Part shown: positions 29,479-43,377 of the stretch, in pieces
Position numbering within the stretch: the first letter of the stretch is position 1
How the letters are laid out: every line of letters starts with the position of its first letter
DNA from: Caldifarciminota bacterium
GTDB taxonomy: Bacteria > Hydrothermota > Tepidihabitantia > SM23-42
DNA length: 64,000 nucleotides
Assembly: GCA_020353055.1 (NCBI GenBank)
Contig: CP070686.1
Coordinates: forward strand, 1,719,410-1,783,409
Direction: 5' to 3'
The notes under the pieces: model-generated
Told to the model about the DNA's origin: nothing
The model's input: only the letters and a program-made list of their open reading frames with translations
The model's database searches: none
Translations under genes and position numbers: made by a program

Positions 29479-30633
29479 TCAGATCTCTCCTGCTTTCTTC
29501 AATCCATATTTAGCAAGAATCGGGCCGACCAATTCATATATCACGGTTGTTGCGGTGATCGTCGTAAAAATAATCTCGCCGTATTTCGGGTAAATCGCTT
29601 TGGCGCTCAGCGCCACGCCCAGCGCGACACCAGCCTGTGGCACCAGTCCCCAGGCCAGGTACTTGCTTATGTTCTTGCCGGACTTTGCTATCATCGAACC
29701 GAGCCTCACACCAATGAATTTACCAGCGACCCTGAAGACCATGTACAGCACACCCATTATGCCGATCCTCGGCAGTATGTTAATCTCCAGATTCGCTCCG
29801 ACCAGAACAAAGAACCCAAGAAAAAAAACTATGTCTACATTTCTTAACTTCTCGAAAAATAGGTCGTTGTTTTTGACAATATTGGCAACGACCAGACCGA
29901 AGGTTATATTGGTAAGGAGCGGCGAGAGGTTCAGTTTCATGGCCAGCCCTACCGCAAGCATTATCGATCCAATGACTATGACAAGGACTTCCTCCACGGT
30001 CATGATGAAACGGGAGAGCAGGTAAAAACCCAATCCCAAAACGCCGCCCAGCAGCAATGCCGCGAATATCTCGTAGAAGGCCTCAAAGAGAACCTCGATA
30101 TTGAAAACACCAAGCCGCATGGCGTTTGCCGTCGTTATCGCCAGCGCTGAGAATATCAGACACCAGGCATCATCAATTGCGACCACCCTGAGAAGCATGT
30201 CGGTGACCGGTCCGCTTGCCCGATACTCGCGCATCACCATCACCGTTGCCGCCGGCGCAGTTGCCGATGCGGCAGCGCCTAACACGAGCGCAGGGTGAAT
30301 TGGCATATGAATCATCTGAAAATATGCTATCATGACCGCGGTGACGATTATCCACGCAAACGCCGCTTCCAGTACAGAAATCCACAAAACAGATTTCCCT
30401 CCCGCCTTTAGCCCGGAGACCGTGAAGTTTGCGCCAAGGGTGAAGGCAATGATGCCCAGCACGAGATTCGAGACAAAATCAGAAGCATTCATGATTTTCA
30501 ATGGGATAAGATTTAACAAGTGGGGGCCGATAAGGATTCCGATCAGAAGATACGCAGTAACGGCGGGGAAACTAATGCGGCGGAGGAGTTTGGCACCTAC
30601 GTACGCACAAATTATGATCAGGCTAATGCCCAA
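29479..30633 (-). CDS. CPA2-type cation:proton antiporter, second paralog
   Basis: 384 residues, about 12 hydrophobic spans, no C-terminal Rossmann domain. Signature ALVLGAAASATAPAATVMVMREYRASG (given in part: SATAPAATV) and VVAIDDAW contain the paired Asp of the ion site seen in electrogenic CPA2 exchangers. The start is a TTG at 30633, four bases after the upstream paralog's stop, with no ribosome site, so re-initiation is likely. It is a close tandem duplicate of the gene at 30638. It would exchange Na+ or K+ for H+ across the inner membrane. Confidence 0.75.
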   Translation of the reverse strand: MGISLIIICAYVGAKLLRRISFPAVTAYLLIGILIGPHLLNLIPLKIMNASDFVSNLVLGIIAFTLGANFTVSGLKAGGKSVLWISVLEAAFAWIIVTAVMIAYFQMIHMPIHPALVLGAAASATAPAATVMVMREYRASGPVTDMLLRVVAIDDAWCLIFSALAITTANAMRLGVFNIEVLFEAFYEIFAALLLGGVLGLGFYLLSRFIMTVEEVLVIVIGSIMLAVGLAMKLNLSPLLTNITFGLVVANIVKNNDLFFEKLRNVDIVFFLGFFVLVGANLEINILPRIGIMGVLYMVFRVAGKFIGVRLGSMIAKSGKNISKYLAWGLVPQAGVALGVALSAKAIYPKYGEIIFTTITATTVIYELVGPILAKYGLKKAGEI

Positions 30634-30637
30634 TATA

Positions 30638-31816
30638 CTATTCAGATGGTAAAATCTCCCCGGCCTTCATAAGGCTGTATTTCGTCAACAACGGTCCGAT
30701 CAATTCGAATATTACGGAAGTTGCTGCGATTATTGTAAAAATATAATCTCCAAAATCCGGAAAGGTTACTTTAGCGACAAGACCGACACCCAGGGCGACA
30801 CCAGCCTGTGGTGCGAGACTGAGGCCAAGCCAATGCTCAGCGCTTTTTGGCGCATTGCTTATCTTCGCGCCGAGTTTCGCACCGTAGACCTTTCCGATTG
30901 TTCGGAACACTACATAAAGGATGCCCGCGAGTCCCATTTTATAGAGCACAGCAAAATCAAGGTGGGCGCCGGATATTATAAAGAATACAAGAAACAGGGG
31001 TGTATCAACCGAGCGCAGGACTTCGAAGAACTTGTAATTCTCCCTTGCAATATTGACCATCACCAGACCCATCATCATGGCAGATAACAGTACCGATACT
31101 TCTAGTGCAATCGATAATCCAACGTCCAGAAACAACAAGCCTAATGTATAGACAAGCAATTCTTCTCTAGTTCTAACAAACTTACTCAGTCTGGAGGAGA
31201 GATAACCCAGCACGCCGCCAAGTAATAGTGCGCCGAATATTTCACCCAAACCAGCGAACACGATCGAAATCTGAAACACATCGGCACGCATCGCATTTCC
31301 CACTGCAATTGCCATCGCAGCGAAAATAAGACACCAGGCATCATCAATAGCAACAACCTTCAACAACAGCTCGGTGAGCACACCGCTTGCCCGATATTCC
31401 CGGATAACCAACACCGTAGCAGCCGGTGCCGTTGCCGAAGCGGCGGCGCCCAGGACAATGGCGGGATATATAGGCATCTTGATGCTGATAAAGTAAACGA
31501 TCAGAGCAACCGAGACAAGTAACCAGGCAAGCAAAGCGGCGCTAAGCGAAACCCACATGACCTGTCTCATTCCCTGGCGCAATTTGTCTATGCGGAAATT
31601 CTCACCTAAACTGAAGGCTATCAAACCCAGAACCAGATTCGAAAAGAACTCTGAGGCGGTAAAGATCTCTACTGTCACCAGATTAAGCAACTGGGGGCCG
31701 ATAAGGATACCTACTATCAGAAAGGCGGTTACGCTCGGCAGGCGCACCATTTTCAGGAGGCGCGCGCCGATAAACCCCAACAATAGAATCAACCCGGCGC
31801 TGAGCAAACTATTCAC
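30638..31816 (-). CDS. CPA2-type cation:proton antiporter, first paralog
   Basis: 392 residues. Shares with the next gene the segments SATAPAATV, REYRASG, VVAIDDAWCLIF and LAPQAGVALGVGL/LVPQAGVALGVAL, so the two arose by tandem duplication. The GTG start at 31816 overlaps the end of the CBS-pair gene by 8 bases. No TrkA-N domain is attached; the CBS protein in the same operon could be the regulatory subunit. Two different subunits may form a heterodimer, since CPA exchangers act as dimers. Confidence 0.75.
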   Translation of the reverse strand: MNSLLSAGLILLLGFIGARLLKMVRLPSVTAFLIVGILIGPQLLNLVTVEIFTASEFFSNLVLGLIAFSLGENFRIDKLRQGMRQVMWVSLSAALLAWLLVSVALIVYFISIKMPIYPAIVLGAAASATAPAATVLVIREYRASGVLTELLLKVVAIDDAWCLIFAAMAIAVGNAMRADVFQISIVFAGLGEIFGALLLGGVLGYLSSRLSKFVRTREELLVYTLGLLFLDVGLSIALEVSVLLSAMMMGLVMVNIARENYKFFEVLRSVDTPLFLVFFIISGAHLDFAVLYKMGLAGILYVVFRTIGKVYGAKLGAKISNAPKSAEHWLGLSLAPQAGVALGVGLVAKVTFPDFGDYIFTIIAATSVIFELIGPLLTKYSLMKAGEILPSE

Positions 31817-32303
31817 TGTTCAGGATTTCGTGTTCTTTTAATATGAAGACAAGAATGTCGAGCAATGATAAAACGCCCACTAATTTCTTGTCCGCCACAA
31901 CGGGTAATGTTTCGATGTTATGAAGTCTCATGAGCCGGCGTGCCTCGCGCACTGTACTTTCTTCGCGGATAGACACATAATTTGTATTGATGATATCGGC
32001 GACAAGAATGAGAGCACCCATCTCGGACGAAAGTTCGAGATTCAAATCTTCATCATCCACTTTCTCAACAAAAGGCATTCTTTCCACGATTTCGCTGACC
32101 GAACCCGAGAAAGGGCGGAATATGTTCAGAATCCCCCGGTAGTTCACTATTCCCAAGAGTATCCTGTCATCGTCAACAACGGGAAGCATATAGTGATTCG
32201 TCTTTCGCATGAATTCGATCAGATTTTTCAGATTTGTGGAAGGACTGACAGTAGGTGCATCACGCCTCATTACTGCTGCGACCGATAGTTTTTCGATATC
32301 CAT
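31809..32303 (-). CDS. Stand-alone CBS-domain pair protein
   Basis: 164 residues made of two CBS motifs: VMRRDAPTVSPSTNLKNLIEFM with HYMLPVVDDDRILLGIVNYRG, and NYVSIREESTVREARRLM with ETLPVVADKKLVGVLSLLDIL. CBS pairs bind adenine nucleotides and regulate attached or partner proteins. First gene of the operon with two antiporters, so it likely senses energy state or a nucleotide messenger for them. The ATG at 32303 is 6 bases after the -10 box, making a leaderless message. Confidence 0.8.
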   Translation of the reverse strand: MDIEKLSVAAVMRRDAPTVSPSTNLKNLIEFMRKTNHYMLPVVDDDRILLGIVNYRGILNIFRPFSGSVSEIVERMPFVEKVDDEDLNLELSSEMGALILVADIINTNYVSIREESTVREARRLMRLHNIETLPVVADKKLVGVLSLLDILVFILKEHEILNSE

Positions 32304-32366: not shown

Positions 32367-33758
32367 TCACGCCGAGACGACTTTATTGCGCCCGGACATT
32401 TTGCCTTCGTACATTGCTTTGTCTGCCTTACCGATGAGATCGTCACGTGTCTTGGCATCTTCGGGGTATGCGGCAACACCAAGCGTCACCGTAATACTGA
32501 ATTTCTTATTACCAAATGCATAAAAGGGGTCCCGGCTGATCGCCACCCGTATTCTTTCCGCAATGATTAATGCGGTCTTCTTCTCGGCATTCGGCAGCAA
32601 TACGATATACTCATCACCCCCGTAGCGCACGATCACGTCATTCTTACGTACAACCTGGGTCATTCTTTCGCCGACTATTTTGAGAGTTTCACTGCCGACA
32701 AGATGACCGAAGTTGTCGTCTACCAGTTTGAAGAAATCGATATCCAGGAATATCAACGAGATCTTTCCGCTTGTATCTTTTCTCTCGATGAGGAAATCGT
32801 CGAGAAACTGATTGCAGTAGCGTGTGTTGTACAATTGGGTAAGATCATCCACCAGGCTTGCATGCTCCATCTTTCTATAGAGATTAGCCTTCTCGAGCGC
32901 TATGGTTAAATGAGCAACAACATTTTCGAAAATTTCGAAATCATCACGAGTAAAAGATTCCTCGCCAATCTTGTTGACAACCTCGACGACTCCGATGACC
33001 CGGTCGCGGCTTTTCATTGGTACACAAAGTACGGATTTCGTGATAAACTGCGTTTGCTGGTCAACCCCAGAATAAAATCGCGGATCCTTTGAAACATCCG
33101 GGACCATCAACGACTTTCCGTATCGGGCAACCCAGCCGGCAACGCCCTGCCCTATCCTCAATCTCATTCCTAAGAGTTTCTTCCCGGCTTTTCCCGAAGC
33201 CGCTTCAAACACCAATTCACGAGTTTTTTCGTTGAACAGAAGAACCGACCAACCTTCGGCGTTTATTAAATCTGCCGCTTTTGCCATGATAGTATTGAGG
33301 ATTTCTTTAGGCTTCAGTGATGAATTTATCGCCTGCACCACTTCATTCAGCGTTTGCATCACCTGAACCTTTCGCTTCAACGATATTACAGTCTTGCGAT
33401 TAAGAATAATCTCATTCCTGCGCTGGATGGCTTTCTCCAACACTTTCTGCAGAAAATCGATCCGGTAGGGACGAAGCAGCAATCCTGCCACTCCGGCAAA
33501 AATCGCTTTTTCTAAATTCATTACCGCGTTTCGGTCGGCGACGAGTATAACCGGAACTTCCTCGTGTTGCTTCCTTAGTTGATCCAGTATTGTCAGTGCC
33601 GCTACATCGAGTAGACAAATATCACATTTCTTCTTTCGGATTAACTTACGCAGCTCAGCGATACTCGCAACGGTTGTATTGCTTAATCCGAGTTCGCGAA
33701 GGTTTCTGGAGAGTGTGCTGAGTCTAAGGCGGTCTGGATCGAAGACTATTAATTCCAT
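32367..33758 (-). CDS. Diguanylate cyclase: degenerate REC, GAF and GGDEF domains
   Basis: 463 residues from the ATG at 33758, which shares a base with the upstream stop (TGATG). Residues 1-115 are receiver-like: acidic pair D7/D9 and the phospho-acceptor-like D51 in CDICLLDVA, but the usual Ser/Thr is lost (VILVADRN) and the conserved Lys is Arg (LLRPYR). A linker helix leads to a GAF domain (about 150-290). The GGDEF domain has IFLDIDFFKLVDDNFGH, an intact VRYGGDEY active site, and an RKND inhibitory I-site five residues before it. It should make cyclic di-GMP in the cytoplasm with product inhibition. Last gene of the ruvX-mltG-cyclase operon. Confidence 0.85.
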   Translation of the reverse strand: MELIVFDPDRLRLSTLSRNLRELGLSNTTVASIAELRKLIRKKKCDICLLDVAALTILDQLRKQHEEVPVILVADRNAVMNLEKAIFAGVAGLLLRPYRIDFLQKVLEKAIQRRNEIILNRKTVISLKRKVQVMQTLNEVVQAINSSLKPKEILNTIMAKAADLINAEGWSVLLFNEKTRELVFEAASGKAGKKLLGMRLRIGQGVAGWVARYGKSLMVPDVSKDPRFYSGVDQQTQFITKSVLCVPMKSRDRVIGVVEVVNKIGEESFTRDDFEIFENVVAHLTIALEKANLYRKMEHASLVDDLTQLYNTRYCNQFLDDFLIERKDTSGKISLIFLDIDFFKLVDDNFGHLVGSETLKIVGERMTQVVRKNDVIVRYGGDEYIVLLPNAEKKTALIIAERIRVAISRDPFYAFGNKKFSITVTLGVAAYPEDAKTRDDLIGKADKAMYEGKMSGRNKVVSA

Positions 33759-36025
33759 CAAATAGTCAAGACTTCGTATAACATCTTAATTTTCTTGTTA
33801 TCTGCATCATAGACATTGTTGCGGTCATCAATGATGACATCATCGACGCGTGCATCGACTATCGCCTTATTCTTGTTCAACTCACCAAGCAAATGCACGC
33901 CCTTCGGTACGACGGATACTTTGAGATCGGGGAAATTATAACCGTGTGTTGTTTGACGAAATTCCCGAAGAACTTTACAGTATTTCTCAAAATCATTTTC
34001 TTCGAGAGGATATTCAAAGTCATCAGCGTTAAGAACAAGGTTTATCAATGTCGGAAGATCACATATTATGACCGAACGTCCCGGTTGTCTCTCTCTGGAG
34101 TAAAGATTTGCATCGGACAAAATAGGGCCGACGAGATCAGGATCGCCATAAGAATTCGGCGCAAAAATAACATCCCGATCCGGTACCCCCGAAGCAATAC
34201 CAACGCCGATCCGGAAGAGGCTCTTGAATTCCGGCGGCAGTAAAGCGTAGGTAATACCGTCTAATTCAAGCGTTCGCTCGGCAACATCTTCGAACCATTC
34301 CCGGTAATGCACAAAATTCGCCCGGATAAATTCTTCTGCCCTCTGCACGATGTCGCGAGCGCACAGGATCGCCCGTTTCGCCGCATCTGCCGCAGGAATG
34401 ATATCACATTCCCCGCCTGAACATATTGAATAGCGGAGTTTTGTTCCTTTTCCGGTTACCGATTCGGTATACAGATAATTGTAGAGAGAACCGGAGTTCT
34501 CAGAAAACCAGACCAACCCCCCGTCACCCGTGTCCTTCAAGAGAAATCCATCATATCTCTTGACCACCTGCGCCATCTCTTTGGCGAATTTGTGTTTTAT
34601 TCTTTGTTCTTTGACCGCATCGTTCAATTTGATGCCCATGTAGGAGGAACCGCGTATGTCATAGACTAATATCGTAACGCATTTTCGGTGCCTGCCGACA
34701 TAGTCAACTATTTCACGCGGCCGTTCAGCAACCTTTTCCTCCAGCTCAAGAACATTTTTCCCGGTTAGAAAGACCGTCTTCAGATTGGCCAGATCGACAG
34801 CGACCCTCGGCGCCTCGTTATCAGCCGGGGGTAAACAACCGACTAGATTCAAGAAACACTGGCCGACGTAATCAGGTATGATCGTTTTCTTCATGAACGA
34901 ATTGTAAACATCCAAAAGTTTTTCGATTTCTAACTCAACTGCTATGAGACCACGCTTCTCGAATTTCTTGAGCATGGATACACTTCGGCTCTTCTTGCGA
35001 TATATTTCCTCCATTTCCAGGGTAAGGGACTTCGTGAAGTTCTTGTATTCATCCTTTGCTGGCGGCCCGAATTTATACATGAAAATATACTCATCGAAGA
35101 TTTCGCTCACGGGTTTCGTTATGTCCAGTGATCTCGTTTCCGCGTAGTGCTTGAGATCTTCTTCCTGCTTAAAGTTATCACGGATTTCCCTCTTCTTCCT
35201 TTGATAATCCTTGAGATGATATATGTTACCCAGAAATAACCGATCCAACCTCGAAAAGAGATTGGAAACTTTCTGAGTAATAACATTGGTGTCGGCATCC
35301 TGAACGACATCCTTCTCGATAATATCGTGCAACCCCTGATTGGTCTCCGCAAAAAGACCCTCGAGTTGTTCCTTTATGCGAACAGAATACAGGTCGATAG
35401 TCTTCAGTTCTTCCTCAGATTTGCTTCTGACATCACGAAGAATACTTGATAACTTCCTGATCAACTTGGTCAGAGATGTTGCCGACAGATAGTTAAGATA
35501 AATCGCCGGGATTTTCTCAACTGCATCCTTTATACTGGCAATTCCAAGACGCTCCACGTCGGAGAGAATATCCGGGAGCAGAGTTTCTACACGGGCTCCG
35601 ACAATGCTCTTGTGTATGGCAAAGAAGATATCCGGGGCAAGCGAAACCTTATGTAAATCCTTGCTATATTCATTGATCTGTCTCCTGTTTGTAGCCTGTT
35701 CAATGAGCGCGATTATTTCACGCGGGCATTTCTCGACCAAGGCTTCGGGGATAGGCATCCCCCTCTTCTTGTGCCCGATGAAAAGAGGCAATTCATAACC
35801 TTCGTATTCGCTGATCTTGTGCCCCAGTTCAAGTATGAAATTGCTACGGTTCTGGAAAACTTTAACCAGCCCTTTTGAAATTCCCAAACAGGCTAAACCA
35901 TGCTCGATTGCCGCAAGACTTTCTCTGTATTTTTGTTCACCGACAAATCTCTTCGCCACCATGTTGAAGTAATTACTCTGCTCTTCGATGTAATCCTGGA
36001 TGCTGTTCACCTTGTGCTTATTCAT
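33758..36025 (-). CDS. Class III nucleotidyl cyclase-like protein, paralog 2
   Basis: 755 residues. Residues 1-445 are mostly helical with no family I recognise. Residues 447-665 are a divergent class III cyclase domain: VYDIRGSSYMG (metal Asp D456), YDGFLLKDTGDGGLVWF (base-site Lys K497, second metal Asp D501), FRIGVGIASG (605-613) and DPDLVGPILSDANLYSR (D630). The transition-state Asn and Arg of classical cyclases appear to be Ser and Leu. Between the metal motifs and GIASG is an insertion of ~85 residues with YREWFE and LDGITYALLPPEF, shared with the upstream paralog. Cytoplasmic, no membrane span. Overlaps the paralog by 4 bases and the GGDEF gene by 1. The product nucleotide, if any, is unknown. 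Confidence 0.7.
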   Translation of the reverse strand: MNKHKVNSIQDYIEEQSNYFNMVAKRFVGEQKYRESLAAIEHGLACLGISKGLVKVFQNRSNFILELGHKISEYEGYELPLFIGHKKRGMPIPEALVEKCPREIIALIEQATNRRQINEYSKDLHKVSLAPDIFFAIHKSIVGARVETLLPDILSDVERLGIASIKDAVEKIPAIYLNYLSATSLTKLIRKLSSILRDVRSKSEEELKTIDLYSVRIKEQLEGLFAETNQGLHDIIEKDVVQDADTNVITQKVSNLFSRLDRLFLGNIYHLKDYQRKKREIRDNFKQEEDLKHYAETRSLDITKPVSEIFDEYIFMYKFGPPAKDEYKNFTKSLTLEMEEIYRKKSRSVSMLKKFEKRGLIAVELEIEKLLDVYNSFMKKTIIPDYVGQCFLNLVGCLPPADNEAPRVAVDLANLKTVFLTGKNVLELEEKVAERPREIVDYVGRHRKCVTILVYDIRGSSYMGIKLNDAVKEQRIKHKFAKEMAQVVKRYDGFLLKDTGDGGLVWFSENSGSLYNYLYTESVTGKGTKLRYSICSGGECDIIPAADAAKRAILCARDIVQRAEEFIRANFVHYREWFEDVAERTLELDGITYALLPPEFKSLFRIGVGIASGVPDRDVIFAPNSYGDPDLVGPILSDANLYSRERQPGRSVIICDLPTLINLVLNADDFEYPLEENDFEKYCKVLREFRQTTHGYNFPDLKVSVVPKGVHLLGELNKNKAIVDARVDDVIIDDRNNVYDADNKKIKMLYEVLTI

Positions 36026-38439
36026 CTCAACGCCTCCGTGTATATCTCAAAAAGCAATTTAGCCCGTTCCACTTTTTCAAGCTGAATATCGCTACTTTCG
36101 TCGATTACGATATCGCTGTCATCGAGCACGATTTTCAGCTTTTCAGTATCGGCCATCTCACGTCCGAACTTGGCCGCAAATATCTTATGCAGATCAAAAA
36201 TGAAGCCTTTACGCGTGGCCCGCTGTTTGATCCAGTATTCCAGCCCCTGCTGAATATTCAATTGTACGGGATCGATACGCAGACCAGCCTCACTCAGAAA
36301 GGAAAAACGCTCAACATTGAGCAGAATATTGTACACCGTTGCGTCGTCACAGATAACGGTCGATTTACCCTTTGCCTTTACCGTGGAATACAGATTCGCT
36401 TCCCGGACAAGCATCCCGGTCAAGTCGTGCTCGCCAAATGCGTTTTTTTCAATATATAACTCACGCGGATAATGTCCTGAAGCAATACCAATACCCACCT
36501 GAAAAATCGATTGGAACGAAGGTGGCAGCTTGGCGTAGGTTGCCCCTTCAAAATTTATTTCACGTTCTTCTGCCTCACGAAACCAATCATGGTATCTATG
36601 GATGTTCCTTTGTACAAACAACTTAGCTTCCTGCACCATTTCAATTGCGCAGCGCACCGCCGGCAGCACATTTCCGGCTTCGGGGTTGAGGGTTTTCTCA
36701 TCTTTTATATCATAGTGGTTCTTCGCGAAGAATATCACACCACCGTCGCCAGTATCCTTTACAGGAATGCCTCCATATTTTTCGGCAACGTAAAGCATTG
36801 ATTCCTGGAACAAATTTCTAATCGCGCTCTCTTTTTCGGCATTCTTTAATTTCGCACCCATGAACGTGGAACCTCTTATATCATAAATCAACACCGAAAC
36901 GAGGTTCTTGTAGCGCTGGACATTGATGTCCGAAGCAGAACCTTCAGCCGGCACAATATTTACATCTTTTTCGATCATCGAAACTCGACCTGACAATGCC
37001 TCCTCACCAAGATAACGAATTCCCTCGGCGGTCATCATATCAGAAAGCTTCGGATAATAATCAACGAGTTCTTCCAGCAGGAAACACTTGACCAACGGAG
37101 TAATGATCTCGTCTACAATTTTGGCAAACTTACCCATTATCATTCGGCTATCGTACTTCTCCTTAAGCAATGCAGGTGTACGGTACTGACTCATCAATTG
37201 CTGGGCTGCCTCGTCATTCCGTATGTCATTCAACGCGTCACGGATTATGAGCTGTAGCTGCTCTTCACCGATCTTTTCATGCCTGTGCAGCACCTGCATA
37301 ATGTATGGATCCCAATCGTTCTTGACGACCAGTCCACCAATGTCGGCTGGTCTATAGTGCATGATTTCCTTCAGACTATTCTCCCTATCGAGACACTCCT
37401 GATACTCCCATTTCAGTATCTTGAGGTCGTAGGCATTACCGATGACAGAGCGATGCAATCTCTTCACCATGTTCTCAATAGCCTCCTCTGTCGAGAAATC
37501 CTCAGCTAAATTTATCAAACTGTCGCTCATAATATTCGTCGTCTCAGATATCTTTTTCCTTATATTCTGCATCTTCTCGGTTTTATCCCGTTTCTTGTCA
37601 GCGATATCAGAGATCAATCTGCGAGCTCGCATCTGAAGAGCATCGATGATCATCGTGAGTGCACTATCGTCTGGAAAGAAAAAGCGCGATCTGAATATTT
37701 CGCCTACCGACTTCTTGTTGAACGAAGGCAATTTGTTTATTGCATCTACGATCTTTTTAGTTTCATCTGTGTAGTAATAGCGCGCCAGACCCTTCATTAT
37801 TGAACTGAATATCGGTTCGGGCAGACCCTTTTTCATGAAACTCGGGTTCAACACTTTCATTATATCAAGAGAGCTGGTTCTGGGTACAAAGGGTATATTT
37901 TCATACGAGTCGATTATTATGTTATCTACGACGACAGTTCGCTTCGTGAGCGAATTCCTGGTATAGCTGAACAGTTGATTGATGACGGCTCCGAATCTTT
38001 CCGATACCAGGCTCTTGGTCTCCGCTGATTCCGTGTGCATCTGACGGGTCAGAATATCACGAAGTAGCTTGCGATTGGCGATTTCGAATATTACAACATT
38101 GGCACTAACACCCTGGACAAAATCCTGATATATGTCGAATATATGTTTGCTGTACCTCTCAAAGAACCGCTCCCATTCATCGACATTAGATTCATCCTCA
38201 AGAAATTTAAGGTAGTTCGATACAAAATCACCCTGAAGGGTAAAAATCCTGCGTCCCAGATAGACAAGTTCTTTGCCGTTATTATACTCCAGTTTCTCGA
38301 TGAACGGATCGCGCCTTGCAATTTTCTTAAGTACTGAAAAGAACCTTGTGAAGTTCGCATTATCTCGATATGTAGCGTGTAACTTCGCGTAGTATGGAGT
38401 TTCGTGAATCACGCTGTCTTCAATGCCCTTGTCGATCAT
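36022..38439 (-). CDS. Class III nucleotidyl cyclase-like protein, paralog 1
   Basis: 805 residues, built like the next gene: a helical N-terminal half (1-505) of unknown family, then a class III cyclase-like domain (about 512-700). Visible residues: IYDIRGSTFMG (D520), YGGIPVKDTGDGGVIFF (K561, D565), FQVGIGIASG and EHDLTGMLVREANLYS (D672). Positions of the transition-state Asn and Arg read Arg and Leu. The inserted segment (YHDWFREAE, FEGATYAKLPPSF) is shared with paralog 2. Class III domains work as dimers with shared active sites, so two unequal, co-translated copies suggest a heterodimer. Overlaps mltG by 4 bases (ATGA). Confidence 0.7.
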   Translation of the reverse strand: MIDKGIEDSVIHETPYYAKLHATYRDNANFTRFFSVLKKIARRDPFIEKLEYNNGKELVYLGRRIFTLQGDFVSNYLKFLEDESNVDEWERFFERYSKHIFDIYQDFVQGVSANVVIFEIANRKLLRDILTRQMHTESAETKSLVSERFGAVINQLFSYTRNSLTKRTVVVDNIIIDSYENIPFVPRTSSLDIMKVLNPSFMKKGLPEPIFSSIMKGLARYYYTDETKKIVDAINKLPSFNKKSVGEIFRSRFFFPDDSALTMIIDALQMRARRLISDIADKKRDKTEKMQNIRKKISETTNIMSDSLINLAEDFSTEEAIENMVKRLHRSVIGNAYDLKILKWEYQECLDRENSLKEIMHYRPADIGGLVVKNDWDPYIMQVLHRHEKIGEEQLQLIIRDALNDIRNDEAAQQLMSQYRTPALLKEKYDSRMIMGKFAKIVDEIITPLVKCFLLEELVDYYPKLSDMMTAEGIRYLGEEALSGRVSMIEKDVNIVPAEGSASDINVQRYKNLVSVLIYDIRGSTFMGAKLKNAEKESAIRNLFQESMLYVAEKYGGIPVKDTGDGGVIFFAKNHYDIKDEKTLNPEAGNVLPAVRCAIEMVQEAKLFVQRNIHRYHDWFREAEEREINFEGATYAKLPPSFQSIFQVGIGIASGHYPRELYIEKNAFGEHDLTGMLVREANLYSTVKAKGKSTVICDDATVYNILLNVERFSFLSEAGLRIDPVQLNIQQGLEYWIKQRATRKGFIFDLHKIFAAKFGREMADTEKLKIVLDDSDIVIDESSDIQLEKVERAKLLFEIYTEALR

Positions 38440-39392
38440 TGGTACCTGTCCTTGGCTGAAGCGTGTTCCCGATAGGTTCGCGAAAAATGATGCCGCCCAT
38501 CGCCCTTTGCTACAAAATAAAGATAATCAACATCGGCTGGCGTTATCGCCGCCCTTATCGAACTCTCACCCGGTGAACATATCGGCCCGGGTGGTAGACC
38601 AAGATGCAGATACGTGTTATAGGGCGAATCGATTCTCAGATCCTGGTCGGTAAGTTTCTGTTTCGGCGCGGCGTTTTCATACTGCTTTATAATATAGAAT
38701 ATCGTTGCGCAAGATTCCAGCGGCCTGTTTGAATTCAGCCGATTCAGGAACACACGGGCAATGATCGGTCTCTCATCCTCATATTTCGCCTCCCTTTCCA
38801 CGATCGAGGCGAGAATAACAATGCGGTGCAAGGAATCGCCATCTTTGAGGCCGAAATCCGGAATCCGACGCAAGAAGTTCTTTACCATCATGTGGATTAC
38901 CGCTTCCTCGCTCTGCATGCTACTGAGAGAATAGGTATCCGGGAACAGATACCCCTCGAGCGAGGACACGCCTAAACCGAGCATGGCAATAAGGCTGTCA
39001 TCATTACACAACTCGATAAATCTTGTGTAATCAACCAACCCCTGATTCACCAAGATGCGACCAGTTTCGTAAATTGTCGACCCCTCTGGTATCGTCACAA
39101 TTATCTCGGATTTACCACCTCTACTGAGCTGACCAATTAAATACAGAGGATTTTTATATTTGTACAACTCATAGGTACCCGCCTTGAGTTGCTTCTCCTG
39201 CCCCGATAATTTTAGCCAGAGCAGGAATTCATCTACGTTGCGGACGATATTCTGATCCGCAAGGAATAATGCGATCTCCCGTGCACTCACATTATCCGGG
39301 ACTGTAACCTCGGTGCGACTCAGGTTCAGAGGCTGCCACCAGATCACGAGGATCAACAATATCAGTGCAAACATCAGATATTTCCTGTTCAT
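38436..39392 (-). CDS. mltG: Endolytic murein transglycosylase MltG
   Basis: 318 residues. One N-terminal membrane span (LMFALILLILVIWW), a LysM-like segment (TVPDNVSAREIALFLADQNIV), and the YceG/MltG catalytic domain: IPEGSTIYETGRIL, SLEGYLFPDTYSL, ILASIVEREAKYEDERPIIARVFLNRL (catalytic Glu in VERE; quoted here in full only as IVEREAKYEDE) and SPYNTYLHLGLPPGPICSPG. It cleaves nascent glycan strands at the periplasmic face and sets strand length. It overlaps ruvX and the cyclase gene by 4 bases on each side; ruvX-mltG is a common neighbourhood. Confidence 0.93.
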   Translation of the reverse strand: MNRKYLMFALILLILVIWWQPLNLSRTEVTVPDNVSAREIALFLADQNIVRNVDEFLLWLKLSGQEKQLKAGTYELYKYKNPLYLIGQLSRGGKSEIIVTIPEGSTIYETGRILVNQGLVDYTRFIELCNDDSLIAMLGLGVSSLEGYLFPDTYSLSSMQSEEAVIHMMVKNFLRRIPDFGLKDGDSLHRIVILASIVEREAKYEDERPIIARVFLNRLNSNRPLESCATIFYIIKQYENAAPKQKLTDQDLRIDSPYNTYLHLGLPPGPICSPGESSIRAAITPADVDYLYFVAKGDGRHHFSRTYREHASAKDRYQ

Positions 39393-39799
39393 GCTCGTTT
39401 CGTTTGCAGGTATTCTTCAAGCATGATCGAAGCAGAGACGCGGTCGATATCTTCCTTCTTCATGCCCAAGCCCGCATCCTTGAACTTCGCCATTGCGTAT
39501 TTACTGAGATAACGTTCATCCCATGGTTCAATTTTGATGTCTAACTGGTTTCTGAGTTTCTTGATAAAACGTTCAACTTCACGGCTGATCTCAGTGGGTT
39601 CACCCCTCATCGAAACCGGATTCCCAACGATTATCAAACCCACGTTGTTCTCCGTAGCTATACACTTAAGTCGTTTAATCAAATCAGCGACCGACTTCGG
39701 CTTGATAGTCACTAGAGGCTGGGATATTGTACATAACGGGTCGGTGATCGCCACACCAACCCTCTTCTTACCGTAGTCGATTGCCATAATACGTGTCAT
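39389..39799 (-). CDS. ruvX: RuvX/YqgF Holliday-junction resolvase-like rRNA nuclease
   Basis: 136 residues, normal for the family. RNase H-like fold: MAIDYGKKRVGVAITDP, GLIIVGNPVSMRGEPTE, EPWDERYLSKYA and a terminal DRVSASIMLEEYL with the conserved Asp. YqgF is linked to 16S rRNA 5' maturation. The ATG at 39799 is chosen over a TTG at 39808 that touches the -10 box; nine bases separate the -10 from this ATG, leaving a leader of about two bases. First gene of the five-gene operon ruvX-mltG-cyclase-cyclase-GGDEF. Confidence 0.9.
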   Translation of the reverse strand: MTRIMAIDYGKKRVGVAITDPLCTISQPLVTIKPKSVADLIKRLKCIATENNVGLIIVGNPVSMRGEPTEISREVERFIKKLRNQLDIKIEPWDERYLSKYAMAKFKDAGLGMKKEDIDRVSASIMLEEYLQTKRA

Positions 39800-39808
39800 G
39801 TTTGACAA

Positions 39809-39836
39809 ATTATACGGATATATTTATTTCTGTCAA
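39809..39836 (-). promoter_or_regulatory. Promoter of the ruvX-mltG-cyclase operon
   Basis: On the minus strand TTGACA at 39831-39836, 16-base spacer, TATAAT at 39809-39814. Its -35 lies six bases from the -35 of the divergent ubiA-like promoter, so the two polymerase sites overlap. Confidence 0.75.
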
Positions 39837-39842
39837 TATTTA

Positions 39843-39870
39843 TTGACTTTGCATGCTTTATTTGTAGAAT
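39843..39870 (+). promoter_or_regulatory. Promoter of the UbiA-type gene, leaderless
   Basis: TTGACT at 39843-39848, 16-base spacer, TAGAAT at 39865-39870, then five bases to the GTG at 39876. Confidence 0.7.
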
Positions 39871-39875
39871 ATATT

Positions 39876-40688
39876 GTGGCATATTTACGTATTATTCGAC
39901 CTGTGAATTGTGTCATTGCATCCGTCTCTGTGTTGGTCGGTGCCTGGATAGGAAGAGATATCTTCCTCTCAAACGGTCTCATCGCAGCAGCGATCATCGG
40001 TTTCATGGTGTGTGCATTCGGTAATCTTGTGAACGACATCAAAGATATAGAAATAGACCGTATCAACAACCCAACCCGCCCCCTCCCTTCAGGCAAAGTG
40101 AAGAAGAACATCATCTGGTTGATGGCTTTTGCGTTCATGATGTGCTCAGCCACCGCCTCATTTTTCCTCGGGACATTCCCTTTTTTGGTCGTAATTGCGG
40201 CACTTATTCTTCTTTTATTCTATTCGGTATATCTGAAGAAAACGCTTTTCGGCAATCTCGCGGTCGCCTTGATATCAGGGCTCAGTTTCATTCTTGGAGG
40301 GCTTGTTGCCGGTAATGCCGCATCTCTCGTTCCTCTGATATTTTCGATATTCATCCATATGCCGCGAGAAATCCTGAAGGACGTAATGGATATGAGGGGT
40401 GATAGAATGATCGGTGCAATTACACTGCCAATTATGGTGGGAACCACACAGGCTTACAACATCAGCGCCATATTTCTGAGCGTTTTGTGTCTCATGCTCC
40501 CGATACCCTACATTATCGGCATACTCGATATCGTGTACATCATAATCGTCCTCGCGGTAGCTTACCCCATTCTCATCTACATCATATGGCGGCTCGTCAA
40601 GAAACCATCAGTTAACGCATTGCCCCTTGTCAGCAATCTTATCAAAGCATCTATGATCGTCGGCCTGGCGGCGATGATTGCTTCATGA
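39876..40688 (+). CDS. UbiA-family prenyltransferase, DGGGP synthase-like
   Basis: 270 residues from the GTG at 39876, five bases after the -10 box; the protein then starts VAYLRIIRPVNCVIASVSVL, as family members usually do. About eight membrane spans. The two Asp motifs are NDIKDIEIDRINNPTRPLPSG (N-D-x3-D-x3-D; quoted in part as NDIKDIEID) and DVMDMRGD. The overall pattern resembles geranylgeranylglycerol-phosphate geranylgeranyltransferase of archaeal ether-lipid synthesis more than MenA or UbiA; related genes are known in FCB bacteria. The lipid substrate is inferred. Overlaps uppP by 4 bases. Confidence 0.75.
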   Translation: MAYLRIIRPVNCVIASVSVLVGAWIGRDIFLSNGLIAAAIIGFMVCAFGNLVNDIKDIEIDRINNPTRPLPSGKVKKNIIWLMAFAFMMCSATASFFLGTFPFLVVIAALILLLFYSVYLKKTLFGNLAVALISGLSFILGGLVAGNAASLVPLIFSIFIHMPREILKDVMDMRGDRMIGAITLPIMVGTTQAYNISAIFLSVLCLMLPIPYIIGILDIVYIIIVLAVAYPILIYIIWRLVKKPSVNALPLVSNLIKASMIVGLAAMIAS

Positions 40689-41437
40689 TCGAAACGATAC
40701 TATTAGGAATCGTTCAGGGGCTTACCGAGTTTCTTCCTGTATCCAGTTCAGGACATCTCGCGATTCTCGAGCATATCCTCGGTATTCACGAACCACTGAC
40801 CCTTGCCGTTTTCCTTCATTTCGGCACCTTTATCGCCATCCTCGTTTATTTCTTTGGTCCGATCAAAGACCTGGTTCGAGGAATACTCAACGGCGACCGC
40901 GGAAGTCTTTCTTATCTCGGCAAAATCGCCATCGGAACCATCCCGATCGTCATCGTCGGCGTATTCTTTAGACCATGGGTTGCCGCGGCGTTCAACAATA
41001 TGTTCGCGGTCGCCATTCTGCTCGGCGTTACTGGTGTGGTCGTTCTGCTGACGGGATCCGTAGTGAAAAAACAAAAGCCGGTAACTCTATTCTCGGCGAT
41101 AGCCATCGGCATCGGGCAGATGCTTGCCATACTTCCCGGCATATCGAGGTCGGGAATGACCATTTCAGCCGGGATATTTTCGGGAACTGACCCGGACCGC
41201 GCATTTCGTTTTTCCTTCCTATTATCAGTACCGGCCATTCTCGGAGCCAATCTCTTCGAATTGAGAAACGTACCGAGTATTACGAATCTATCTGAAATCC
41301 TGATCGGCATGCTCTGTAGCTTTGTGAGCGGACTGATCGCGCTGGCCGTTCTGCGTCGTACTGTATTCCGAAGATTCCATCTGTTCGGAGTTTACTGTCT
41401 CATCATCAGTGTATTACTTATATTTATCCGACCATGA
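40685..41437 (+). CDS. uppP: Undecaprenyl-diphosphatase UppP/BacA
   Basis: 250 residues, about 8 membrane spans. Signature motifs: GIVQGLTEFLPVSSSGHLAI (catalytic Glu and SSSGH) and LPGISRSGMTISAG (PGxSRSG). It dephosphorylates undecaprenyl diphosphate to recycle the cell-wall lipid carrier. Coupled by 4-base overlaps to the prenyltransferase before and the peptidase after. Confidence 0.95.
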   Translation: MIETILLGIVQGLTEFLPVSSSGHLAILEHILGIHEPLTLAVFLHFGTFIAILVYFFGPIKDLVRGILNGDRGSLSYLGKIAIGTIPIVIVGVFFRPWVAAAFNNMFAVAILLGVTGVVVLLTGSVVKKQKPVTLFSAIAIGIGQMLAILPGISRSGMTISAGIFSGTDPDRAFRFSFLLSVPAILGANLFELRNVPSITNLSEILIGMLCSFVSGLIALAVLRRTVFRRFHLFGVYCLIISVLLIFIRP

Positions 41438-43377
41438 AAATAAATGAAACAATAATGATCTTGATTCTTCTCGCGACCGTCGCTGGCGGTGACGTCGACC
41501 GCTACCGGAAGGACAACCTGTTGTTAGAAAACATCCCCCAAATCCCCACCACGGTTGTCGCCCGCCTGCAGCCGTATCAGAACATCAGGGGCGCAGCATT
41601 CTATGACTGGCTGCCCATGAATAGTGGCATATTGATACGAACCCGATTTGCCGAGTCAAGCCAAATCCATGTCGTCGAAACGCCAAAAGGTATGCGGCGC
41701 CAAATCACATTCTTTGATGAAGGCATCGCTGAATGCACTGTCTGCCCGGACCCACGCAAACCGATATTACTTTTCACCAAGGACAAAGAGGGCAACGAAG
41801 TTCATCAAATATACGAATACAACTACTCAACCGGCGCTTACAGATTGCTGAGTGACGGGAAATCAAAATTCAATTCAATAGTATGGTCAAGGAAAGGCGA
41901 CCGCTTTGCCTTCCGCTCCAACAGGCGTAACCGGCGCGACTATGATATCTATCTCGGCGATCTGCGCGGCGAGAAGAGTTTTAGATTAATTATGCGGAAG
42001 GGCGGATACTGGTACCCGGTTGAGTTTTCGCCTGATGACCGCAAACTCCTGGTCAAGCAATATGTATCTTCCGATGAGTCTTACTACTATATTATCGATA
42101 TGAAAAACGAAAAGGCGACACCAATGCACAATGACACGGCAAAGGTTTCATACGGAACTGCCCGATGGTCTCCCGACATGAGAGGTATATATGTTGTCTC
42201 GGACAGGTTTGGTAATTTCAAGCAGTTGCTATACTACGATCTGCAGAACGCGACCTTTGAAATATTAACAAAGCAAATAACTTGGGACATCGGCGAAATC
42301 GAAATCTCTCCGTCGGGAAGTAGTCTTGCCTTCACCAGCAACGAAAATGGATTCGGCAGACTGTATCTAATGGATACCGGGACTCGTGCGCTCAGCCGCG
42401 TGAGTCTGCCGGATGCGCAAATATACAATCTAGTTTTCAAACCCGACGGTGACGAATTGGCCATCACTCTGAACAGACCAACACAACCGAGTGACGTATA
42501 CACATTGAATTTAAAAACGAAGAAGTTCTTGCGCTGGACCCAGAGTGAGCTCGGCGGCCTCGATACACTATCTTTCGTAGCACCCAGACTCGTACAGTAT
42601 GAGACATTTGACAGTGTGCAAGGCCAGCCACGCACAATTCCTGCTTATTACTACGAACCACGAAAATTCAAGCCGCCATACCCAGTCCTGATCGATTGCC
42701 ATGGCGGTCCGGCCGTCCAGGAAAAACCCTATTTTTATTATCTCTTTCAATTCTTCTTGAATGACATGGGTATCGCGGTCATCGCGCCGAATGTTCGCGG
42801 TTCGACCGGCTACGGCAGGGAATTTATGATGCTGGACGACGGGTATAATAGAGAAAACTCCGTAAAGGACATCGGCGCGCTTCTGGATTGGATAGAAGAG
42901 CAACCACAACTTAACAGCCGTCGTGTAGCCATCAGCGGCGCTTCTTACGGCGGCTACCTGGTACTCGCCGCGATGGTCAAATACAACGAACGCCTGCGAT
43001 GTGGCATCGATCAACTGGGCATCAGCAACTTTGTCACTTTTCTCGAAAATACAAGTGAATACCGTCAGGATTTGCGCCGCGAAGAATACGGCGACGAGCG
43101 TGATCCTACAATGCGTGAATTTCTCACCCACATCTCACCTCTGACCAATGCTCATCTTATTAAGAAACCTATGTTCATCGTTCAGGGACTCAACGATCCG
43201 AGGGTGCCGGCTTCTGAGGCTGAGCAGATCGTAAAAGCGATTCGCAAGAACGACGTAGAAGTCTGGTATCTGCTTGCTGAAGACGAAGGTCATGGGTTCG
43301 GCAAGAAATCGAACCGTAATTTCTATCAGCAGGCAATGGTATTGTTCTTGGAAAAGTATCTGCTCGGGAAGAAATAG
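41434..43377 (+). CDS. S9 family prolyl-oligopeptidase-like serine peptidase
   Basis: 647 residues with an N-terminal signal peptide (TIMILILLATVAGG), so probably periplasmic. A seven-bladed propeller with PD40-like motifs (FNSIVWSRKGDRFAFRSN, YGTARWSPDMRGIYVVSD) is followed by an alpha/beta-hydrolase domain: PVLIDCHGGP, IAPNVRGSTGYGREF, SGASYGGYLV (nucleophile near residue 505), QGLNDPRVP (Asp near 587) and DEGHGF (His near 620). Typical acylaminoacyl-peptidase layout. Last gene of the uppP operon. Confidence 0.88.
   Translation: MKINETIMILILLATVAGGDVDRYRKDNLLLENIPQIPTTVVARLQPYQNIRGAAFYDWLPMNSGILIRTRFAESSQIHVVETPKGMRRQITFFDEGIAECTVCPDPRKPILLFTKDKEGNEVHQIYEYNYSTGAYRLLSDGKSKFNSIVWSRKGDRFAFRSNRRNRRDYDIYLGDLRGEKSFRLIMRKGGYWYPVEFSPDDRKLLVKQYVSSDESYYYIIDMKNEKATPMHNDTAKVSYGTARWSPDMRGIYVVSDRFGNFKQLLYYDLQNATFEILTKQITWDIGEIEISPSGSSLAFTSNENGFGRLYLMDTGTRALSRVSLPDAQIYNLVFKPDGDELAITLNRPTQPSDVYTLNLKTKKFLRWTQSELGGLDTLSFVAPRLVQYETFDSVQGQPRTIPAYYYEPRKFKPPYPVLIDCHGGPAVQEKPYFYYLFQFFLNDMGIAVIAPNVRGSTGYGREFMMLDDGYNRENSVKDIGALLDWIEEQPQLNSRRVAISGASYGGYLVLAAMVKYNERLRCGIDQLGISNFVTFLENTSEYRQDLRREEYGDERDPTMREFLTHISPLTNAHLIKKPMFIVQGLNDPRVPASEAEQIVKAIRKNDVEVWYLLAEDEGHGFGKKSNRNFYQQAMVLFLEKYLLGKK

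Follow-up and report, generated by a model that had tools for sequence, protein, structure and literature searches.

Divergent class III cyclase homologues and their co-inherited diguanylate cyclase in candidate phylum WOR-3

Introduction

Only a few examples are known of direct wiring between a mononucleotide cyclase and a diguanylate cyclase, chiefly in Xanthomonas (PMC3770947). In Xanthomonas campestris, cyclic GMP (cGMP) from the class III cyclase XC_0250 stimulates the adjacently encoded XC_0249, a protein with a cyclic mononucleotide-binding (cNMP) and a GGDEF domain (PMC3770947). Here we analysed a 64,000-nucleotide stretch (the window; positions 1,719,410 to 1,783,409 of contig CP070686.1) from an uncultured bacterium of candidate phylum WOR-3, in which two adjacent genes, here named cycA and cycB, are followed by a gene for a GGDEF-domain diguanylate cyclase. 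CycA and CycB are two ancient paralogues, A-type and B-type, of a so far undescribed family of divergent class III cyclase homologues, and this cyclase together with a dedicated diguanylate cyclase is an ancient, conserved and co-inherited unit. The wiring of a cyclase to cyclic di-GMP (c-di-GMP) here appears conserved over two phyla with almost no cultured members; a WOR-3 isolate in culture is sy37 (NBRC 116057, PMC12285271). Moreover, the A/B pair could serve as a natural experiment in which class III catalysis is split between subunits without the classical Asn–Arg pair.

The locus resembles XC_0250/XC_0249 in that a class III-type cyclase gene adjoins a GGDEF gene (43 of 50 B-types) and in the proposed relay from a mononucleotide to c-di-GMP. 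However, XC_0250 is a guanylate cyclase with TPRs, whereas the base-site residues of CycA and CycB predict ATP rather than GTP and their N-terminal domain is helical and without known relative. Furthermore, the window holds two paralogous cyclases, and the partner there carries REC and GAF domains but not the CRP-like cNMP domain of XC_0249. With canonical class III adenylyl cyclases (CyaB, 3r5g; Spirulina CyaC, 1wc1; M. avium Ma1120) the family shares the fold (Z 15-20), the DIRG and KxxGDG metal and base motifs and the base-site Asp. Unlike these enzymes, it has no classical alpha-4 Arg, an Asn replaced by Arg (A-types) or Ser/Ala (B-types as in the window), an extra segment before strand beta-4, a different N-terminal domain and no recognition by PF00211. 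In the mammalian C1/C2 adenylyl cyclase and the alpha/beta soluble guanylate cyclase, too, a pair of cyclase domains has diverged and each contributes part of the active site, as we propose here, but both bacterial subunits keep the metal Asps and the base-site pair and have lost other residues. Like PycC of the Pycsar system, CycA and CycB have a divergent bacterial class III fold, and 7r65 and 8jsf appear in their fold lists; unlike Pycsar, they are encoded by conserved chromosomal genes of two phyla. The Pycsar models of PADLOC, a library whose sensitivity for PycC was not gauged, gave no match at E 1. No TIR or transmembrane cNMP effector lies next door, the neighbours encoding MltG, RuvX, the GGDEF protein, a CBS protein and Na+/H+ exchangers.

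A cyclase and a diguanylate cyclase inherited together

We scanned genomes with two peptide patterns, a search from which absence from other phyla does not follow. The family was found in 53 of 147 genomes of the window's phylum, with one or two genes each; three to four matches per genome in some listings are split matches of one gene, or gene fragments. Exactly one match was present in all 10 genomes analysed from the phylum containing Edwardsbacteria/UBP2, and one TA06 genome carries a single match. The viral contigs searched contained no relatives. In a midpoint-rooted tree, 39 proteins form an A-clade (support 1.0) that includes CycA of the window and the genes linked to rplQ and valS, and the remaining 50 are B-type; the A-clade split is unaffected by rooting. 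Genomes with two copies always hold one A-type and one B-type, adjacent or distant, and many genomes carry a B-type alone. Some small genomes of the phylum are rich in ordinary PF00211 class III cyclases, with up to 18 copies (G078).

A GGDEF gene follows 43 of the 50 B-types (40 detected by script, L101 by Pfam, and L046 and L099 cut by contig ends); the other seven are five members of family f11, L058 and L047. We built a tree of the 40 adjacent GGDEF domains and 40 others sampled from both phyla and from TA06, with the window genome among the sources, and the adjacent domains formed one exclusive clade (support 0.985). When the GGDEF domains of eight further genomes were added, one alone joined the partner clade (support 0.88); it comes from G012, where it is unlinked and the A–B tandem has no GGDEF neighbour. 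In this extension no partner-clade member was found in f11, G129 or TA06. GGDEF genes occur in all 53 cyclase-positive genomes versus 44 of 94 others, counts that ignore ancestry. All partners with a complete domain keep the GGDE[FY] motif. Nearly all partners with a GAF domain carry the NKxnFx3D motif, which is too common to prove cNMP binding, and PF00027 (CRP-like cNMP-binding) was not among the matches of the partners scanned, the window partner having REC, GAF and GGDEF only.

The genes upstream of the cyclase are of at least four kinds: ruvX-mltG, pyrR-pyrB-pyrC, a PilT/T2SS-E ATPase gene, and tldD. Because the GGDEF gene remains constant while these change, and because the partners form an exclusive clade, we regard the cyclase and its diguanylate cyclase as an ancient module. 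The link to the GGDEF protein proposed in the initial annotation is supported, more strongly than the sequence of one genome could show. Since the partnership is kept across two phyla, it is probably a two-messenger relay. A link to cell-wall growth through ruvX-mltG had also been suggested, but we rejected it as a family property: elsewhere the cyclase genes follow pyrBC, pilT, tldD or rplQ. ruvX and mltG belong to the same gene string in the window's lineage and lie outside the conserved module.

Fold and domain layout

Single-chain AlphaFold2 models of CycB and CycA were built from 39 and 32 sequences (predicted local distance difference test, pLDDT, 86 and 84; predicted template modelling score, pTM, 0.73 and 0.79). 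In these predicted structures the C-terminal ~300 residues of both adopt the class III nucleotidyl cyclase fold and align with P. aeruginosa CyaB (3r5g), in agreement with the initial reading of both as divergent class III cyclases. Class III enzymes, among them P. aeruginosa CyaB (E 6e-5), were also matched in a profile search with the cyclase domain. CycA and CycB have no significant match to any Pfam, NCBIfam or PADLOC model, and PF00211 gave no match at E 1 for the two and was not among the listed matches for 26 family members; lacking a Pfam or NCBIfam model, the family escapes annotation. The stretch from the second metal Asp to strand beta-4 is longer by ~60 residues in CycB and by ~38 in CycA than in the CYG12 guanylate cyclase, where the spacing is 44 residues (Asp527-Arg571, PMC2576301). 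These values replace the common insertion of ~85 residues described at first.

The N-terminal halves had been called unassignable, and indeed neither has a convincing PDB or Pfam relative by sequence profile. However, homology links the N-terminal half of CycA to that of CycB (hhalign E 1.5e-6), and both to N-termini elsewhere in the family (E 1.4e-14 and 3.7e-14). Matches of the N-terminal profiles in the PDB were only coiled-coil-like (UPF0335/GapR, E 0.002, and hemagglutinin stalks) and were taken as chance. The Foldseek and VIA lists for the full-length models are taken up by cyclase-domain matches, and N-terminal relatives are thus judged from sequence.

Active-site residues of the two paralogues

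Metal Asps are usually the first residues to be lost in dead cyclases. In the present family both metal Asps, the base-site Lys and the Asp of the D-L-x-G motif, all noted initially in the window pair, do not vary among 89 homologues. The full set of unvarying positions (B numbering) is Y455, D456, R458, K497, G500, D501, D630, G633, N624 (a new Asn) and S651, and the base-site Asp of CycA, D672, is equally invariant. Because they are invariant in 89 homologues, we consider the motifs real and not due to chance. As the metal and base residues are among them, a "catalytically dead" pair, one of the options considered at first, seems unlikely.

Only eight conserved columns of the whole cyclase domain separate A-types from B-types. 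Among these are position 605, where beta-4 begins, with Arg in B and Gln in A, and position 637, with no Arg in B and Arg in A, whose roles were assigned from an alignment of sequence and predicted secondary structure. To judge from these contrasting residues at the beta-4 Arg and alpha-4 Asn positions, the two paralogues are probably catalytically differentiated. The absence of the classical Asn and Arg noted for the window pair holds there, but not for the family, in which 24 of 50 B-types keep the Asn at D630+7. It is present in every B-type from genomes without a detected A-type, and also in those of families f15, f16, f28 and f29, which have an A-type. The 26 B-types that lost Asn637 all come from genomes with an A-type (two lineages), and those of family f30, whose genomes also have an A-type, carry Asp/Gly (n=6). 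Every B-type has Arg531, as do the A-types from genomes with an A-type alone, and 24 of 24 tandem A-types lack it. Such complementary losses lend a heterodimer support of an indirect kind only.

Proposed mechanism and alternatives

We infer cyclase activity, ATP as substrate, a heterodimer and the GAF domain as receiver, and give about an even chance to the reading that the family is an ATP-using cyclase, heterodimeric in the window, that controls its own diguanylate cyclase. The CycA–CycB heterodimer would bind ATP with two metal ions and make a cyclic nucleotide, predicted from the Lys/Asp base pair to be cyclic AMP (cAMP). In the main active site, the metal site and the beta-4 phosphate Arg would belong to CycB, and the Lys/Asp that reads the base, together with an alpha-4 Arg, to CycA. 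A signal could be sensed by the helical N-terminal domains, and the output would reach the neighbouring diguanylate cyclase, probably via its GAF domain, or by direct contact. A single cue would then set both the mononucleotide and c-di-GMP. In CYG12, one monomer contributes the metal Asps along with the beta-4 Arg, and its partner contributes the alpha-4 Asn and Arg (PMC2576301). Read against this arrangement, the A/B residue differences are suggestive of CycB as the C1-like and CycA as the C2-like partner, and in the window's lineage a CycA:CycB heterodimer seems most likely. Since the alpha-4 Asn–Arg pair is missing, we do not file the two proteins as canonical class III cyclases, but assign them to a divergent family of homologues that probably function in a similar way. 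A more far-reaching proposal appears quite unlikely to us: that a bacterial heterodimer of class III fold has found a new way of catalysis, in which the Asn–Arg pair has given way to Arg at the Asn position and to further non-classical residues. This heterodimer, whose product might differ from cAMP, would be wired to a single dedicated diguanylate cyclase inherited with it.

Several observations weigh against a heterodimeric cyclase acting on its partner. The alpha-4 transition-state Arg position (D630+11) is Arg in 0 of 89 homologues. CycA retains its own metal Asps, although they would be superfluous in a purely C2-like subunit, and the complementary residue losses rest on few independent events. 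As B-types stand alone in many genomes, a heterodimer is not general for the family, and the "obligate" pairing initially proposed is not supported for the family; two genomes have an A-type without a detected B-type. Moreover, in family f11 no partner GGDEF adjoins the cyclase and no clade member was found, and the pil-type partner that was scanned gave no GAF match. The doubts attached to the initial proposal were thus borne out as far as single genes are common, but no gene has a normal Asn–Arg pair and the GGDEF neighbour is usual.

The absence of the alpha-4 Arg in 89 of 89 homologues could also be explained by a nucleotide-sensing regulator, which would bind ATP or another nucleoside triphosphate with metal in the class III pocket, cyclise it poorly and act through direct contact as a switch of the partner diguanylate cyclase. 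We consider this possible, though rather unlikely. The invariant binding residues would suit binding as well as catalysis, the partnership is inherited as a unit, and the long helical hairpins fit protein contact. However, both metal Asps are kept in all 89 homologues, and an Ala substitutes for the Asn in the active enzyme Ma1120 (PMC4215837), so that incomplete alpha-4 pairs can function.

A further alternative is an enzyme that does not make cAMP but a cyclic pyrimidine or a linear or cyclic dinucleotide, or that releases pyrophosphate. The non-classical alpha-4 and the context pyrR-pyrB-pyrC-Cyc-GGDEF-uridine kinase in several families would fit such a product. Yet Lys and Asp at the two base sites mark ATP-using enzymes among those studied (PMC4215837), the pyr context is only one of at least four, and no pyrimidine-cyclase (Pycsar) model was among the PADLOC matches at E 1, and we hold another product to be very unlikely. 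Finally, ordinary co-transcription, in which a stand-alone cyclase would have no more than a shared operon in common with the housekeeping genes and the GGDEF gene, fits the variable housekeeping genes upstream but is highly improbable, as one exclusive GGDEF clade tracks the cyclase across two phyla and differing operons, and chance adjacency would be ~0.5% by our estimate (3-16 GGDEF genes per sampled cyclase-bearing genome, about 2000-2500 genes).

The locus and its neighbours

The gene order in the window is ruvX-mltG-cycA-cycB-GGDEF (Table 1), with successive overlaps of 4 bases except between cycB and the GGDEF gene. There the junction is TGATG, with an overlap of 1 base for an ATG start and of 4 bases for a TTG start. 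The open reading frames confirm two overlapping tandem genes, both intact, and the window genome, in which the locus lies on a single contig of 2.69 Mb, holds only these two copies of the family. Compared with the nearest relative of the same genus, cycA and cycB are under purifying selection (non-synonymous divergence, dN, 0.06-0.07; synonymous divergence, dS, 1.2-1.9; dS is saturated in several other pairwise comparisons), and their cyclase halves are better conserved than the N-terminal halves.

Table 1. Features of the cycA-cycB locus, in window coordinates. E, E-value; rmsd, root-mean-square deviation.
Feature	Positions	Strand	Remarks
ruvX	39389-39808	(-)	E 3.1e-34; TTG start (ATG start at 39799 in the initial annotation)
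mltG (YceG)	38436-39392	(-)	E 1.4e-80
cycA, A-type divergent class III cyclase-homology protein	36022-38439	(-)	805 residues
CycA residues 1-505, helical N-terminal domain	36925-38439	(-)	predicted model; long helical hairpin (258-313, 318-360)
CycA residues 512-804, class III cyclase fold	36028-36906	(-)	Z 19.6 to 3r5g, 183 residues, rmsd 2.7
CycA D520, first metal Asp (YDIRG)	36880-36882	(-)	invariant 89/89
CycA K561-D565 (KDTGD), base-site Lys and second metal Asp	36745-36759	(-)	invariant 89/89
CycA Q647, beta-4 triphosphate-Arg position	36499-36501	(-)	Gln in 38/39 A-types, Arg in 50/50 others
CycA R679, classical alpha-4 Asn position (D672+7)	36403-36405	(-)	Arg in 39/39 A-types, 0/50 others
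cycB, B-type divergent class III cyclase-homology protein	33758-36025	(-)	755 residues
CycB residues 1-440, helical N-terminal domain	34706-36025	(-)	predicted model; long hairpin (197-240, 246-297); family-wide
CycB residues 448-755, class III cyclase fold	33761-34684	(-)	Z 17.9 to 3r5g, 183 residues, rmsd 2.4
CycB D456, first metal Asp (YDIRG)	34658-34660	(-)	invariant 89/89
CycB K497-D501 (KDTGD), base-site Lys and second metal Asp	34523-34537	(-)	invariant 89/89
CycB R605, beta-4 triphosphate Arg position	34211-34213	(-)	Arg in 50/50 B-types; role by analogy to CYG12 Arg571 (PMC2576301)
CycB D630, base-site Asp (DLVG)	34136-34138	(-)	invariant 89/89
CycB S637, classical alpha-4 Asn position (D630+7)	34115-34117	(-)	Ser/Ala in 20/20 tandem B
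Partner diguanylate cyclase, REC-GAF-GGDEY with RxxD inhibitory-site motif	32367-33761	(-)	GGDEF E 7.6e-40; exclusive partner-clade member
GGDEY active-site motif of partner	32607-32621	(-)	

Downstream of the GGDEF gene (29479-32303) lie a gene for a two-CBS protein and two consecutive Na+/H+ exchanger genes, an order kept in most of the window's family. CBS domains have adenosine nucleotides as ligands and could therefore be a target of the cyclase-GGDEF module. On the other side (39798-43377), genes for a UbiA-type prenyltransferase, BacA/UppP and a prolyl oligopeptidase-like protein run divergently from ruvX and are conserved with it in the family.

The ruvX-mltG context is found in the window's family, order and class and for one TA06 A-type. 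In the pyr context (L050, L052, L054, L056, L061, L079), the cyclase and GGDEF genes lie between pyrR-pyrB-pyrC and a gene for a protein of 522-528 residues with a uridine-kinase/PRK domain (Pfam, L050), and a tie between the second messengers and pyrimidine supply is possible. In Hydrothermus-type genomes (L071, L075-L078), a gene for a PilT/T2SS-E type ATPase precedes the cyclase-GGDEF pair, which suggests a link to pili or secretion. The A-type paralogues of several families are placed between rplQ and valS, inserted between the rpoA-rplQ ribosomal operon and valS (L051, L053, L055, L057, L059 and L062; Pfam for L051).

In two single-contig genomes of the same genus, G086 (L089, L090, L091) and G088 (L088), cycB is broken, with residues 1-315 remaining beside cycA; this is either an assembly chimera or a real rearrangement. 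In G086, cycB residues 410-755 and 625-755 are located elsewhere, each adjoining a GGDEF gene or fragment.

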